A program made the translations under genes and the position numbers. Positions 374 to 34,888 of a stretch of 35,467 bases of DNA are shown one piece after another. Source of the DNA: Armatimonadota bacterium (GTDB lineage Bacteria > Sysuimicrobiota > Sysuimicrobiia > Sysuimicrobiales > Kaftiobacteriaceae). Where the stretch lies: positions 1-35,467 of the forward strand of contig JACPRY010000007.1 in the NCBI GenBank assembly GCA_016193565.1, in the 5' to 3' direction. The number at the start of each line of letters is the position of its first letter. The stretch's first letter is position 1. The notes beneath the pieces are model-generated. The model was not told where the DNA came from and did no database searches. It was given only the letters and a program-made list of their open reading frames with translations.

Positions 374-1754
374 CTTCCTGGGGGAGATGGAGGTGCCGGT
401 CGATGCGTACTATGGCGCGCACACGGCCCGGGCGATCCGGAACTTTCCGATCAGCGGCCTGCGCTTCTCCCGCCCGTTCATCCGCGCCCTCGGTTTGATC
501 AAGCAGTCGGCGGCCGAGGTCAACATGGAGCTCGCTCTTCTGGATCGGCGCATCGGCGAGGCGATCGTCAGAGCCGCCGGCGAAGTGGCCGAAGGCCGGT
601 TCGACGAGCAATTTCCGATCGACATCTATCAGACCGGCTCGGGCACCTCGACGAACATGAATGCCAACGAGGTGATTAGTAACCGCGCTGCCGAGCTGCT
701 GGGCGGGCAGCGCGGGGGCAAGACCGTCCACCCCAACGACCACGTGAACATCTGCCAGTCCAGCAACGACGTCATCCCGACCGCGATCCACCTCGCGGCC
801 CTCATGGAAATCCGCAGCGCGCTCATCCCTGGTCTGGAACGCCTGCAGCGCTCGCTTGAAGCCAAGGCGAAAGGGTTCTACCCCATCGTCAAGACCGGCC
901 GCACCCACTTGATGGATGCGACGCCGATCCGGCTCGGCCAGGAGTTCGAAGGCTACGCGGGGCAGGTCGCTCGCGCGATCCGCAGGCTCCGCTACGCGCA
1001 GGATGAACTGCGCGAGGTCCCGCTGGGCGGCACCGCGGTCGGCACGGGGACCAACGCGCATCCCGAGTTCGCGCGCCGGGCGTGTGCCCGACTGTCGAAA
1101 CTCACGGGCATCGACATCCAAGAAACAGACGCCCATTTCCAGGCGCAGGCATCCCTCGATGCCCTCGTGTTCGCCTCGAGCGTACTGCGCACGTATGCGA
1201 CAGCGCTGATGAAGATGGCGAACGACATTCGTTGGATGGGGTCGGGCCCGCATGCGGGGCTCGGCGAACTCCAGCTGCCCGCGGTGCAGCCGGGCTCGTC
1301 GATCATGCCAGGCAAAGTGAACCCGGTCATCACGGAATCGGTCATCCAGGCCTGCGCGCAGGTCCAGGGCAACGACCTCGTCGTCGGGGTCGGCAACCAG
1401 TGGGGCAACTTCGAGCTCAATACGATGATGCCGGTCATCGCACACAACCTGCTCTGGTCGATCGAGCTGCTCGCGGCGGTCTCGCGCAACTTCGCGGAGC
1501 AGTGTATCGAGGGTCTCACGGCGACAGACCGCGGGCCGGAGCTAGTCGAACGCGGTTTGATGCTCGCCACCGCACTCGCGCCGGTCGTTGGCTACGACAA
1601 GGCCGCGGAAGTGGCGAAGACGGCCGCGGCCACCGGCCGCACGATTAGGCAGGTGGCGACGGAGACACGCGGGCTCAGCGACGCGCAGTTGAAGGAGATC
1701 CTCGACCCGGAAAAGATGACGGCAGCCGGCCTGCATGGAGGCGGGGGAGGTTGA
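336..1754 (+). CDS. fumC: Class II fumarate hydratase
   Basis: Catalyses reversible hydration of fumarate to malate in the cytosol (TCA cycle). The 472-residue length fits class II fumarases. Visible family signatures are '[14 protein letters not shown]', 'HPNDHVN', '[13 protein letters not shown]', '[10 protein letters not shown]', '[16 protein letters not shown]' and the superfamily loop '[12 protein letters not shown]', which carries the catalytic Ser. The GK(V)NP loop and the GTG.N.HPEFA stretch favour fumarase over aspartase, although the two are closely related and aspartase cannot be fully excluded. The start is set by a perfect aggagg at 322-327, eight bases before ATG. The C-terminus ends in a run of glycines encoded by gcgggggaggt, which also forms the purine-rich stretch at the frdA junction. 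It is the first gene of a fumC-frdABCD operon, so the product of one enzyme is the substrate of the next. Confidence 0.9.
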
Positions 1755-29480: not shown

Positions 29481-30173
29481 TCACAGGCGTGAACCAACGG
29501 CAGGCAGCACCTCCCGCAGATCCGTGATCCGCAGGCAATCCACGCCGACGTGCCGTTCATCTCGATCGATGAAGATCGGCGAGATGCCGGCCTGCCGGGC
29601 TCCGACCACGTCGGCTTCGTAACTGTCTCCAATATGGACGGCTTCGTCCGGACGGCATCCAGCGCGGTCCAGCGCGAGCCGGAAGATCTTCGGGTCAGGC
29701 TTGTCGGCTCGCGCCTCTTGTGAATACGTCACCGTGTTGAAATCGCGCGTTAAGCCAAGCTGCTGCAGCCGCTCCAACATCTCGTCCACGTTATTGGAGA
29801 TGATGCCTAACTGATAACCATTCGACCGCAACGCCTGTAGGGTCTCGCGGACATCTGGATAGAGATGGTACCAGTCTGGCCGCCCGAATCCAGCGTTGAT
29901 CGCATCGGCCAGGACACCCCGCGGGTCATCGATTCCGAGTCGTTCAAAGATAAGTCCATCGTACCGACGCCAGTACTCCCGCATCCGGCCATGGTAGTCG
30001 TAGATGTTCAGCCTGCCCGCCGTCTCATTGGCGATCTGGAACGCCTCCCCAAATGCCGCGGGATTCGGAGTGAATCCCAGCTCCTTCAGCAGGTGGAGCC
30101 AAATCCGTTCCGGCGGCGGATCCACGTAGGCCAGCGTGCCGCCATAATCAAAGAAGATGACCTTCGGTCTCAA
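29481..30173 (-). CDS. HAD-superfamily hydrolase (subfamily IA)
   Basis: A 230-residue phosphatase-type enzyme. Motif I is 'FFDYGGTL' (nucleophile Asp, but second Asp replaced by Gly: DYGGT rather than DxDGT), motif II 'IISNN', motif III 'KPDPKIF' and motif IV 'GDSYEADVVGA'. The DYGGT form is common in a subgroup of HAD-IA proteins of unknown substrate. A helical cap follows motif I. The TTG start overlaps the stop of the DapA-like gene (TTGA). It is the last gene of the operon that begins at the mrfA-like helicase. Confidence 0.82.
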   Translation of the reverse strand: MRPKVIFFDYGGTLAYVDPPPERIWLHLLKELGFTPNPAAFGEAFQIANETAGRLNIYDYHGRMREYWRRYDGLIFERLGIDDPRGVLADAINAGFGRPDWYHLYPDVRETLQALRSNGYQLGIISNNVDEMLERLQQLGLTRDFNTVTYSQEARADKPDPKIFRLALDRAGCRPDEAVHIGDSYEADVVGARQAGISPIFIDRDERHVGVDCLRITDLREVLPAVGSRL

Positions 30174-31330
30174 AGCAACCCAGCGGACGTGAGAAGGGTC
30201 CGCAGCCGGCTCCGGCCTTCGTCGGTAAGCGGCGGCGCGGGAGCCCGGATGATGGGTTTAGGAATCAGGCCCAGGATGGCCATGGCCTCCTTCACCACGA
30301 CGAAGAAGGGCGCGTCGAGCTGGTACAGCGTTGCGAGTTCCAGGCGGGCGCGCATCAGGGCTGCGGCTTCCTCAATTCGCCCCTTCCGGTATGCCTCGTA
30401 CACGGCGACCGACAGCTGCGGAGCGAAGTTCGCGATCGCCGGGATCGCTCCGTCGCCGCCAGACAGCAGTGTGTTAAGCAAGTGAAATTCGAACCCGCAC
30501 AATACGCTGAACTCCGGCTTCACCGGTTTGAGCCGCGCAATCACCTCGTGGATGTGGCTCACGCTATCGATCGTCTCCTTGATCCCGAGCACGTTCGCGT
30601 GAACCTGCGCAAGCTTCGCCACGAGCGGCGCCGGAATGATGCGCCCGATGACGGCCGGGAAGTGATAGATGAGGACCGGAAGTTCGACCGCCCGGGCGAC
30701 TGCGCCGATGTGCGTCTCAATCGCCGTATCGTTCGGACTCCAGTAGTATGGCGGGATGACGACCACGCCGTCGGCGCCGATCTCCTGGACGTGGCGCGCC
30801 AGGGCGACGGCTTCGTCCGTGGAGGTGGATAGACAACCGACGAGCACCGGCACGCGGCCGTTCACCTGCCGGACCACCAGCCTCGCAAACTCCCGCCGCT
30901 CGTCCGCCGAGAGATGCATCGCCTCACCCGTGCTGCCGAGCGCCAAGATGCCGTGGACGCCGCCCGCGATGAGAAACTCGATCTGTCTCTCGCTGGCGGC
31001 GTCGTCGATGCGGCCGCCTTCATCAAAGAGAGTCACAAGCGGCGGAATCACCCCGCTAAATCGTGCCACCGACGTGCTCTCCTTCAGCGCGCGCAGGTGC
31101 TCCTGAACGTAGCGCTGTGCTTCCGTTTCATACGCTTTGGGAACCAGAATGTCCCCCCACACGCCGATGGCACCACGGATCACCTCGCCGTAACCCGGAA
31201 CCTGCCGGCTGCGGACCAGCACGGGGATACCGGTGTCTTCGAGGATCCGCTGCACCAGCAGCGCTTCGGATTCGCTGACCGCCTGGTGCACGCGGGCGTA
31301 GTCATCGGGCAGCGGGATCCAGCGTCGCAT
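30170..31330 (-). CDS. DUF2007-like domain fused to a DapA-family aldolase/lyase
   Basis: A 386-residue protein of two parts. Residues about 14-80 ('VHQAVSESEALLVQRILEDTGIPVLVRS..VWGDILVPKAYETEAQRYV') look like the DUF2007 putative signal-transducing domain. Residues about 92-386 are a complete DapA/NAL TIM barrel: 'GVIPPLVTLFDEGGRID', 'LGSTGEAMHLS', Tyr in 'LIYHFP' (222) and Schiff-base Lys in 'LGIKETIDS' (251). The barrel normally cleaves or forms a C-C bond next to pyruvate; 'YHFP' instead of 'YNIP' and no nearby lysine genes argue against true dihydrodipicolinate synthase. ATG starts one base after the rsmI stop and the stop overlaps the HAD gene, so the fusion is the natural gene, not a track artefact. 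Confidence 0.82.
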   Translation of the reverse strand: MRRWIPLPDDYARVHQAVSESEALLVQRILEDTGIPVLVRSRQVPGYGEVIRGAIGVWGDILVPKAYETEAQRYVQEHLRALKESTSVARFSGVIPPLVTLFDEGGRIDDAASERQIEFLIAGGVHGILALGSTGEAMHLSADERREFARLVVRQVNGRVPVLVGCLSTSTDEAVALARHVQEIGADGVVVIPPYYWSPNDTAIETHIGAVARAVELPVLIYHFPAVIGRIIPAPLVAKLAQVHANVLGIKETIDSVSHIHEVIARLKPVKPEFSVLCGFEFHLLNTLLSGGDGAIPAIANFAPQLSVAVYEAYRKGRIEEAAALMRARLELATLYQLDAPFFVVVKEAMAILGLIPKPIIRAPAPPLTDEGRSRLRTLLTSAGLL

Positions 31331-31331
31331 C

Positions 31332-32018
31332 TCAGCCCCGACGTCGCGTAGCCCCGGCTACCACGATCGTGAACTCGCCGCGAGGCTCGGTGCCGCTGAA
31401 ATGCTGAAGCACCTCGGTCACGGTTCCCCGAATCACTTCCTCGAATCGTTTCGTGAGTTCTCGCGTGATCGCGACCTGCCTGTCTCCGAGCACTTCGCGC
31501 AGATCCTCGAGCATGTCGCGCAGACGATGCAGTGATTCGAACAACACCAGCGTCCAGGGGACCGCGGCGATCTCTCCTAGGACCCGCTTCCGCTGGCCGG
31601 ATTTCCGTGGGAGAAATCCCAGAAAGACAAAGCGATCGGTCGGCAGCCCAGACACCGCCAGGGCCGCAGTGACGGCGCTGGGGCCGGGCACGGCGACCAC
31701 GGGTATTCCACGCGCCGTGGCCTCATGGACGATCACGTATCCGGGATCGGACAGCGCAGGCGTCCCGGCATCCGACACAAGCGCGATGGACGCGCCTGCT
31801 TCCAGCCGTGGCAGCAGTTCGGCCGTCCGCCGGCGCTCGTTGTGCTCATGGTAGCTCACCAACGGCTTCGCGATGCCGTAATGTGTGAGCAGTAGACGCG
31901 TGTGCCGGGTGTCCTCGCACGCGATGAGATCGACTTCGTTGAGGATGCGCAGCGCGCGCAGGGTGAGGTCTTCTAGATTGCCGATCGGCGTCCCGACAAC
32001 GTACAGGGTGCCGGCCAT
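31332..32018 (-). CDS. rsmI: 16S rRNA (cytidine1402-2'-O)-methyltransferase
   Basis: A 228-residue SAM-dependent tetrapyrrole-methylase-fold enzyme that methylates the 2'-O of C1402 in 16S rRNA. The family sequence 'GTLYVVGTPIGNLEDLTLRAL' is at the N-terminus, followed by 'ACEDTRHTRLLL', 'LVSDAGTPALSDPG', 'VVAVPGPSAVTAALAVSGLP', 'FLGFLPRKSGQR' and 'EVIRGTVTEVL'. It lacks the ~50-residue C-terminal extension found in E. coli RsmI, as in many shorter homologues. It follows the SLOG gene by 11 bases and ends one base before the DUF2007-DapA gene. Confidence 0.95.
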   Translation of the reverse strand: MAGTLYVVGTPIGNLEDLTLRALRILNEVDLIACEDTRHTRLLLTHYGIAKPLVSYHEHNERRRTAELLPRLEAGASIALVSDAGTPALSDPGYVIVHEATARGIPVVAVPGPSAVTAALAVSGLPTDRFVFLGFLPRKSGQRKRVLGEIAAVPWTLVLFESLHRLRDMLEDLREVLGDRQVAITRELTKRFEEVIRGTVTEVLQHFSGTEPRGEFTIVVAGATRRRG

Positions 32019-32029
32019 CTCTCGCCCGC

Positions 32030-32515
32030 TCAGCGGGTCGCGCGCCCCGCAAGCGCGCGCGAAACCTCGTCAAGCGCCTGCTGTGGCGTCTCCACCATGG
32101 TAATCGGCGCGCGTCGTCCAGCGCGAGAGACGTCCCACGTTCGCAATCCTATCACCGGCTTGCCGGCCCGCAGGGCGTGGCCAATCTCCGCAAGCGTCCC
32201 AAACCCGCCGCCAATCACGATGAGCACGTCTGCCGTCAGCGCGATAACCACGTTCCGTCCCTGGCCCATCCCCGTCGTGATAGCGATGTCGACGAACGAA
32301 TTCGCCTCGCGGGCCTCGGTGCCGGGAAGAATCCCGATGGTTTCTCCCCCCGCCGCCTTTGCGCCGCGGCACGCCGCCTCCATCACGCCCGACAGCCCGC
32401 CGCACACGAGCACGTAGCCTGCGCGGGCAATCAACCGGCCGACGTCTTCGGCCAGCGACTGATGCGCTGGATCGGAAAACTCGCTTTCGCCAATGACTCC
32501 GATCACGGGCTTCAC
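32030..32515 (-). CDS. SLOG/LOG-like protein (TIGR00725 family)
   Basis: A 161-residue Rossmann-type nucleotide-binding protein. 'IGVIGESEFSD', 'GYVLVCGGLSGVMEAACRGAKAAGGETIGILPG' and 'ADVLIVIGGGFGTLAEIGHALRAGKPVIGL' are the SLOG signature; the GG-x-GT-x-x-E motif for phosphate binding is intact. The TIGR00725 group is related to LOG cytokinin-activating phosphoribohydrolases and molybdenum-cofactor carrier proteins, but its function is unproven. GTG 32515 starts 12 bases after the mrfA stop with only a weak aggcag. It lies between a repair helicase and rsmI in the operon. Confidence 0.85.
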   Translation of the reverse strand: MKPVIGVIGESEFSDPAHQSLAEDVGRLIARAGYVLVCGGLSGVMEAACRGAKAAGGETIGILPGTEAREANSFVDIAITTGMGQGRNVVIALTADVLIVIGGGFGTLAEIGHALRAGKPVIGLRTWDVSRAGRRAPITMVETPQQALDEVSRALAGRATR

Positions 32516-32527
32516 ACGCGTGGCTGC

Positions 32528-34888
32528 CTATGGCCGGCGGCGGTGCAGACGCCGGCGGGGCGCATACGGGGGCGCGGTCGCCGTCCCCACCTGCGCGGAT
32601 GACTTCGCGGCCGCAGACTCGCGCCCCAGCAGGCCACGCAATAGCAGGATGGCCGCGGCTTTGTCGAGCGGCTCGTTCATGTTGCCGCACTTTGGGGATT
32701 GGATGCATGACGGGCATCCGGCCTCGCAGGGACAGGCCTCGATCGCTGCGAGCGTTGCCGCCATGAGATCGTCGAGCAGCCCGAAGCCCTTCTCGGTGAT
32801 GCCCACGCCTCCGGGATGCCCTTCGTAGATGAAGATCGCGGCGGCGCTCAGGTCCGGATACATAGGATACGAGACGCCGCCCAGATCCCACCGGTCGCAC
32901 ATGGCAAACAGTGGAAGGATGCCGATGGCCGCGTGCTCCACCGCATGGATGCCGCCGGCCAGATCGAGACCGCGGCGCCGTACCTCATCGTCGAGCCCCT
33001 GCGGGATCGGAAACCACAGCGCCGTTGTCTGCAGCCGCTCTTCAGGAAGATCGAGCGGTTCCTCGCTGAGGACCTCGTCACTGAAGAGCCGCTTGCGCGC
33101 GAAGGCGATGACCTGGGTGGTGACCTCAACCTCGCCGAAATACGCGGTGGTCGGACCCCACGGCCGCTGCTTGAGCGCTTCGAGAATCTCCAGGTCCGTG
33201 GTGGAACGGGGCTGCGTGTAGTAATCGGCATCGGAGGGCATGACCGTGGCCGTCCTCTGATCAAGGTCCAGCCGCTCCACCTGGTAGGGCTCACCCTGAT
33301 GCAGGTAGATCGCTCCCGGATGCACCTGCTCGAACGCCCGCGCTCCGTCCACTGTGCCGACGAGCCGCCCGCGCACGCCTTCGACGATACGGAAGGTATT
33401 GCCTGACACTGAGCGCACTTCGACCTCGTTGGCGGGGTAGCTTCGCTTCGCCCAGTACCAGCGGCCCAGGCGGGTCACGAGATCACCGTGCTCTTCGAGG
33501 ATCTTCGCGACCTCCGGCAGGCTCGCGCCAAATAGCTCCGCATCCTGCTCGACCAGCGGGACCTCCGCGGCGGCGCACCTGAGGTGACCGGCAAGGATGT
33601 ACGGATTCTCGGGATCAATCACGGCGTGCTCGACGGGCCGCTCGAACAGATAGTCGGGGTTGCGCATCAGGTACTGGTCGAGCGCGTCTTCGAGCGCGAT
33701 GAGCACGACCAGCGCCTCGTCGGTGCCCCGACCCGCGCGTCCCGCGCGCTGCCACGTACTGGCGATCGTACCGGGAAATCCGACGAGCACGGCCGCGTCG
33801 AGTCCCCCGACGTCGATCCCCAATTCCAGCGCGCTCGTGCTCACGACGCCCAGCAGATCACCGTGAAACAGCCTCCGTTCAATTGTGCGGCGCTCCTCGG
33901 GGAGATAGCCGGCGCGATAGGGACTGATCCGCGCCGCGAGATCGGGATGGGTCGACTCGAGATCCAGCCGGGCGTACCGGTAGACCAGCTCAGTAATCTT
34001 CCGCGCCTGCGTGAACGCGATCGTCCGCACCGCGCGACGGATGAGCTCCGTGAAGATCCCAGTCGCTTCCGAGTAGGCGCTTCGGCGGTGCGCTCGGGCT
34101 TCGTCGATGATCGGCGGGTTCCACAGCGTAAACCACCTCGAGCCGCTGGGGGAGCCGTCCACGTCGACCACCGTCATCGGCACGCCGACCAATGCTCCTG
34201 CGAACTCTTTCGGATTGGCGATCGTCGCCGACGTGCAGATAAAGATGGGGTTTGCGCCATGCAGGCGGCAGATCCGCCGCAGCCGGCGGATGATGTTCGC
34301 CACGTTGCTGCCGAAGACACCCCGATAGATGTGCACGTCGTCGATCACGACATAGCGGAGGTGGCGGAACAGCGTCGCCCACTTGTAATGCTGCGGCAGG
34401 ATCCCGATGTGCAGCATGTCGGGGTTCGTGAGGATGATCTGCGCGCGTTCCCGCAGCCGGCGCCGCTGCTCCTGCGGCGTATCACCGTCGTACGTCCCAC
34501 AGGCGAGCCCGGGCACGTCGAACTTGGCGAGCGCGTCGGCCTGATCCTGGGCGAGGGCTTTCGTCGGGAAGAGGTAGAGCGCGCGCGACCTCGGATCCGA
34601 AAGCAGGGTTTCCAATACCGGGAGGTTGTAGCACAGCGTCTTCCCGCTGGCCGTGGCCGTCACGACTACAACATGCTGGCCGCGCCGCACCGCGCCGATC
34701 GCCTCGACCTGGTGGCGGTAGAGGCGGGTGATGCCTCGCGTTGCGAGTGCATCCTTCAGCTGTTGAGGAATTGGTGGGCGCAGCTCGGCGAAGCGTGCCT
34801 TGCGGGGTGGAATGAAGCGTTCGTGGACGATCTGGCCGTCATAGCCCTGCTTGCGCTTCAGTTCGTCAAGGAATGCCCTCATGTCCAT
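32528..34888 (-). CDS. DEAD/DEAH-box helicase, YprA/MrfA-like
   Basis: A 786-residue superfamily 2 helicase with a C-terminal Cys-rich domain. Walker A is 'TATASGKT' (77-84), Walker B 'VIDDVHIYRG' (183-186), motif III 'TSATIANP', and motif VI lies in 'QRAGRAGRG'. The DUF1998-type tail has the metal-binding set 'CPCEAGCPSCIQSPKC' (about 715-735). This architecture is that of B. subtilis MrfA (YprA), which acts in repair of mitomycin-type DNA damage. The box reads DDVH, where relatives have DEVH or DEMH (codons gac gac in the sequence). The helicase heads an operon with the SLOG protein, rsmI and two more genes. ATG 34888 has gcgagg upstream; ATG 34882 is an alternative. Confidence 0.9.
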   Translation of the reverse strand: MDMRAFLDELKRKQGYDGQIVHERFIPPRKARFAELRPPIPQQLKDALATRGITRLYRHQVEAIGAVRRGQHVVVVTATASGKTLCYNLPVLETLLSDPRSRALYLFPTKALAQDQADALAKFDVPGLACGTYDGDTPQEQRRRLRERAQIILTNPDMLHIGILPQHYKWATLFRHLRYVVIDDVHIYRGVFGSNVANIIRRLRRICRLHGANPIFICTSATIANPKEFAGALVGVPMTVVDVDGSPSGSRWFTLWNPPIIDEARAHRRSAYSEATGIFTELIRRAVRTIAFTQARKITELVYRYARLDLESTHPDLAARISPYRAGYLPEERRTIERRLFHGDLLGVVSTSALELGIDVGGLDAAVLVGFPGTIASTWQRAGRAGRGTDEALVVLIALEDALDQYLMRNPDYLFERPVEHAVIDPENPYILAGHLRCAAAEVPLVEQDAELFGASLPEVAKILEEHGDLVTRLGRWYWAKRSYPANEVEVRSVSGNTFRIVEGVRGRLVGTVDGARAFEQVHPGAIYLHQGEPYQVERLDLDQRTATVMPSDADYYTQPRSTTDLEILEALKQRPWGPTTAYFGEVEVTTQVIAFARKRLFSDEVLSEEPLDLPEERLQTTALWFPIPQGLDDEVRRRGLDLAGGIHAVEHAAIGILPLFAMCDRWDLGGVSYPMYPDLSAAAIFIYEGHPGGVGITEKGFGLLDDLMAATLAAIEACPCEAGCPSCIQSPKCGNMNEPLDKAAAILLLRGLLGRESAAAKSSAQVGTATAPPYAPRRRLHRRRP

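Follow-up and report, generated by a model that had tools for sequence, protein, structure and literature searches.

It has been reported that YagE of Escherichia coli splits or forms 2-keto-3-deoxy-D-xylonate, the parts of which are pyruvate and glycolaldehyde, and that a gene for xylonate dehydratase lies in the same operon as yagE (PMC13279387). YagE was also one of seven E. coli pyruvate aldolases that were removed against the breakdown of 2-oxo-4-hydroxybutyrate (PMC13279387). DapA, the 4-hydroxy-tetrahydrodipicolinate synthase, belongs to the same superfamily and has the same fold. DUF2007 (PF09413) is known from stand-alone proteins, and the excerpts consulted from the literature on them mentioned neither a function nor a fusion with an aldolase; the one DUF2007 fusion reported in these excerpts was with universal stress proteins (PMC3673472). 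The phylum Candidatus Sysuimicrobiota, in which the present locus was found, was described from metagenome-assembled genomes (PMC11604079).

In the window, that is, the whole stretch of 35,467 nucleotides that was analysed, a DUF2007 domain was joined to a YagE-type aldolase in a single gene. YagE itself is without such an N-terminal domain, and its operon partner had no counterpart here: the neighbour was rsmI, and no xylonate dehydratase gene was nearby. The fusion is lineage-specific, and we lean towards the view that DUF2007 would serve the aldolase as a sensor or adaptor module on a flexible tether. It is a modest new domain combination and not a new kind of system.

Layout of the fused gene and its neighbours

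The original prediction of a small domain joined to a barrel in one open reading frame was confirmed at its exact coordinates (Table 1). The same domain order and an unbroken frame recurred in 15 aligned genomes, and therefore the fusion was neither a chance event nor a sequencing artefact. In the AlphaFold model of the full protein (mean pLDDT 85.2), a confident barrel and a small N-terminal domain were separated by a linker of low confidence. The length of this linker ranged from about 5 to more than 50 residues among the aligned fused proteins.

Table 1. Features of the fused gene and of the genes adjoining it, in positions of the window
Feature	Position	Strand	Remarks
HAD hydrolase gene	29481..30173	-	Overlaps the stop codon of the fused gene
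Fused gene, DUF2007 + YagE-type pyruvate aldolase	30170..31330	-	386 aa; ATG start; uninterrupted frame
DHDPS/NAL-family (beta/alpha)8 barrel	30188..31060	-	Residues 91-381; nearest relative E. coli YagE
Lys251, predicted Schiff-base lysine (GIKET)	30578..30580	-	Invariant
Val227	30650..30652	-	Occupies the place of DapA Arg138
Tyr222, catalytic tyrosine of Y-H-F-P	30665..30667	-	YNFP in relatives
Linker	31061..31081	-	About residues 84-90; model confidence low at ~84-86
GTG codon 88	31067..31069	-	Conserved in all 7 fused genes within the family; in G003 (L013), the homologous GTG is the start codon of the separate barrel gene
DUF2007 domain	31082..31300	-	About residues 11-83; from profile, orthologs and AlphaFold model
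rsmI	31332..32018	-	Directly upstream of the fused gene (stop, 1 nt, ATG); present in 32 of 32 loci compared

An operon with rsmI and a HAD hydrolase gene had also been proposed. The part concerning rsmI stood, since this gene was directly upstream and was the conserved neighbour of the DUF2007 locus. The HAD gene did overlap the fused gene in the window, but the relatives compared had no such gene in this position, and its linkage was thus not conserved. In some members of family f1, the fused gene was followed by a 103-aa ABM-like ORF.

The RsmI protein of the window had 228 aa. In most relatives, those of the same genus among them, RsmI had about 276-300 aa, and the window's protein was shorter by ~50 aa or more at its C-terminus. 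Upstream of rsmI (32030-34888), there were a SLOG-family gene and a gene for an MrfA/HRQ1-type helicase, in an order common to several relatives.

Distribution in the phylum and history of the locus

Our sample consisted of 43 genomes of Candidatus Sysuimicrobiota, 31 of which had the N-terminal domain. A search for the same fusion across genomes, which had been suggested with the original prediction, gave 17 genomes from three families where DUF2007 was fused in frame to the barrel. These included G006, where a contig edge fell inside the barrel, and G017, where a run of N lay at the junction and the frame of the N-terminal domain read into the start of the barrel. A free-standing DUF2007 gene of about 86-106 codons was located at the rsmI locus of 11 genomes and was followed by other genes, e.g., those for a methyltransferase or an AMP-binding ligase, or metG; no barrel was found within ~5 kb each way of these 11 loci where the contig allowed. 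In three genomes the two parts were separate genes with a strong Shine-Dalgarno sequence and a 4-nt stop/start overlap, namely GTGA in G003 and ATGA in G015 and G018. Finally, the barrel gene of G039 came directly after rsmI, and no DUF2007 was found there. Thus, of the 21 genomes whose barrel locus was readable, 20 had the barrel fused or 4-nt-coupled to DUF2007.

No genome of the phylum had more than one strong match to DUF2007 of this type; the fused domain was not a duplicate but the same single copy that stood free in other genomes. The fusion in Candidatus Sysuimicrobiota was a lineage-specific one of two adjacent genes, i.e., the single-copy DUF2007 gene after rsmI and the YagE-type aldolase gene directly behind it. 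The distribution indicates that the DUF2007 gene probably was at the rsmI locus before the aldolase. Under the simplest and most likely history, rsmI and DUF2007 already formed a pair when the aldolase gene arrived behind them, and the fusion followed. The rsmI tree was weak at its base and was compatible with one joining and two splits, or with the reverse. The dN/dS ratios were similar, at 0.09-0.18 for the N-terminal domain and 0.07-0.21 for the barrel, rough values because dS was high in several pairs, and they show purifying selection on both halves.

Outside the phylum, a barrel was present within ~4 kb in none of the top 19 DUF2007 matches inspected. The other phylum whose free-standing domains were closest gave no barrel at E <= 1e-45 in 42 genomes. 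YagE-like barrel frames in G154, G291, G426 and G427 were considered as fusions and rejected, being 305 codons long and too short for the N-terminal domain. We rated the fusion as a new combination of two known domain families; no case from another phylum was found among the genomes sampled or in the literature searched.

The junction itself may carry a second start signal. The window's family has seven fused genes, and in each of them GTG codon 88 had a Shine-Dalgarno-like stretch shortly upstream (AAGGAG in the window) with duplex energies of -8.0 to -11.7, and among the 280 codons scanned it was the only one with a start codon at <= -8 in all seven genes. Since the seven genes share ancestry and -8 was reached by 14% of all their start-like triplets, we take the signal as suggestive, not as proof, of a second product in this family, that is, a free barrel that would be translated from the internal GTG. 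Alternatively, the internal start may be a remnant, or may result from the Lys-Glu codons. At the GTGA junction of G003 (L013, about 1480-1540, reverse strand), the fused and the split states were about one base apart; the split could be either a biological fission or an assembly error.

The original prediction of an enzyme controlled by, or tethered through, its small domain was plausible and compatible with these data. However, DUF2007 probably predated the aldolase at the locus and may be unconnected with its activity, and a linker of such variable length does not fit rigid allosteric coupling. Therefore, given also the barrel without DUF2007 in G039, a bifunctional fusion of neighbours was almost as likely as control or tethering. 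According to this explanation, unrelated neighbours that were already co-translated were joined by the loss of a stop between overlapping genes, and the two halves work independently. It agrees with the 11 genomes where DUF2007 stood alone after rsmI with other genes behind it, with the single-base distance at the G003 junction, with the variable linker and with G039. However, fusion or 4-nt coupling at all but one of the readable barrel loci, across three families and with high dS in several pairs, argues against it, and we regard it as a serious alternative that is nevertheless somewhat doubtful. We retain the flexible tether as the preferred reading, while control of the aldolase by DUF2007 in the proper sense is plausible and about as probable as a merely bifunctional fusion. 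One phylum has the same single-copy domain free, translationally coupled, fused or missing beside one enzyme, which makes a natural series for identifying what DUF2007 binds, and the locus shows a step of fusion or fission caught at a 4-nt overlap.

Resemblance of the barrel to YagE-type aldolases

Residues 91-381 matched the DHDPS profile (PF00701) from position 2 to 287 of its 289 positions (E 6.9e-69), and this full-length barrel of the DHDPS/NAL superfamily had both the predicted Schiff-base Lys and the catalytic Tyr. T134, Y195, Y196, Y222 and K251 were invariant across the aligned orthologs. YagE was the closest solved relative both in sequence (E 5.8e-78, against 1.9e-40 for the next kind) and by fold (43% identity, model TM 0.97 by target length), and the overall identity between the barrel and YagE was about 43-45%. 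The E. coli 2-keto-3-deoxy-D-xylonate / KDG aldolases YagE and YjhH were alike to it in the PYYW, YNFPA(L/V) and VLCG...HL.NTLL.GGDG motifs and in the catalytic Lys and Tyr. In the barrel tree there were three family clades, and their nearest outside rows were YagE and the L133/L134 barrels, which adjoined the clade at a fork with support of 98/98. Thus, the barrel is YagE-type by sequence, fold and tree.

By this resemblance, the protein is probably a pyruvate-dependent class I aldolase/lyase of the YagE kind. It would bind pyruvate as a Schiff base on Lys251, with the use of Tyr222, Thr134 and Tyr196, and would make or split a 2-keto-3-deoxy (or 4-hydroxy-2-oxo) acid and not dihydrodipicolinate; most likely, it works as YagE does. 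The complete lyase/aldolase barrel of the original prediction was borne out, whereas its assignment to the DapA family was right only at the level of the superfamily. The unusual Y-H-F-P motif was real (codon 223 is CAC), but it was a substitution unique to the window's genome and not a trait of the fused group, since YNFP was present in 14 of 14 other aligned fused proteins and in YagE.

No sugar-acid dehydratase of the IlvD/EDD type was found in the neighbourhood of the fused gene. The barrel-bearing genomes had one gene of this type each, apart from G018 with two and the incomplete G000 where none was found; since there was mostly a single gene, a yagF-like partner was mostly lacking. Enolase-superfamily proteins occurred in every genome and were uninformative as pathway partners, and the same applied to the PfkB kinases in the window's own genome. 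The fused proteins represent a branch of YagE-type aldolases that is uncharacterised and lies outside sugar-acid operons.

DapA shares the active-site Lys, Tyr and Thr with the barrel but has no additional N-terminal domain. The dapA equivalog model (TIGR00674) gave 180.6 bits here and 184.7 and 180.4 bits in orthologs, below its cut-off of 206.15. The place of Arg138, which in DapA binds the carboxylate of aspartate semialdehyde, was taken by Val or Leu in the orthologs, and two other dapA-type paralogs in the genome both exceeded the dapA cut-off. DapA was rejected as the identity of the barrel because of the lost Arg138, the low score and the two paralogs. On the other hand, in family f7 (L081, L082, L083, L089) the downstream genes encoded a homoserine dehydrogenase, a threonine-synthase-like PLP enzyme, a GHMP kinase and an amino-acid kinase, and therefore probably formed a threonine operon. 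A true dihydrodipicolinate synthase with DUF2007 as its feedback domain would share the substrate aspartate semialdehyde with this hom-thrC-thrB-lysC-like set, and the fold search with the N-terminal domain gave a weak similarity to aspartate-kinase regulatory domains; against the residue and score evidence above, we still find this explanation quite improbable. Very improbable, too, is a scheme where one frame yields two co-assembling proteins, the DUF2007-aldolase and the free aldolase from the internal GTG, and where the enzyme of f7 would condense formaldehyde with pyruvate. The 4-hydroxy-2-oxobutanoate thus made would be a natural route into homoserine, and DUF2007 would sense a product.

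In one further locus (L139, G000:C33:29000-38500), a dapA-type paralog had transporter-like genes next to it, and a second DHDPS-like gene, which was more divergent, was close by.

The small domain

When scanned alone, the window copy matched DUF2007 over residues 13-74 with E 0.0026 and 18.3 bits, below the curated Pfam cut-off of 25.7 bits for PF09413. However, all 19 orthologous fused or split N-terminal domains matched the profile at E <= 0.1. The best of them was L014 (46.0 bits, E 5.8e-12), and L025 (31.7 bits) and the free-standing orthologs L070 (34.7 bits) and L077 (33.0 bits) also exceeded the cut-off. We therefore assigned the domain to DUF2007 through its orthologs, as the weak match of the window copy was insufficient alone. 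A domain search had been named as the check by which the predicted DUF2007 identity could fail, either for want of a profile match or if the N-terminal part was a usual DapA extension; the orthologs did match, and the part was no such extension. The idea of a mere structural extension of the barrel, with which the low score of the window copy would agree, is hardly credible and was rejected, since orthologs were above the cut-off and the same domain formed free-standing genes in the same position and was matched by the profile in other phyla.

The AlphaFold model of the domain alone (pLDDT 82.6) had the order strand-helix-strand-(helix)-strand-helix. Likeness to stand-alone DUF2007 proteins consisted in the profile match of the orthologs and a similar order of secondary structure, the difference being that the domain was joined to an aldolase here. 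A fold search with the model gave no match at E <= 0.001, and 2hfv was at rank 3 (prob 0.99, TM 0.58, E 0.045). This entry, RPA1041, is what we take to be a possible solved example of DUF2007. Against the sequences of solved structures, the profile of the N-terminal domain gave chance matches only, and no match was found for a DUF2007-type protein from another phylum.

Residues 40-60 of the domain contained a conserved loop, RSRQVPGY...GVWGD (in general form RSRQxPGY...WGD), variants of which recurred in free-standing copies and in DUF2007 copies of other phyla. Through this loop, the domain might retain an ancestral role in binding a small ligand or a partner. In other phyla, we also observed two DUF2007-type genes in tandem or near each other (L117, L119, L120).
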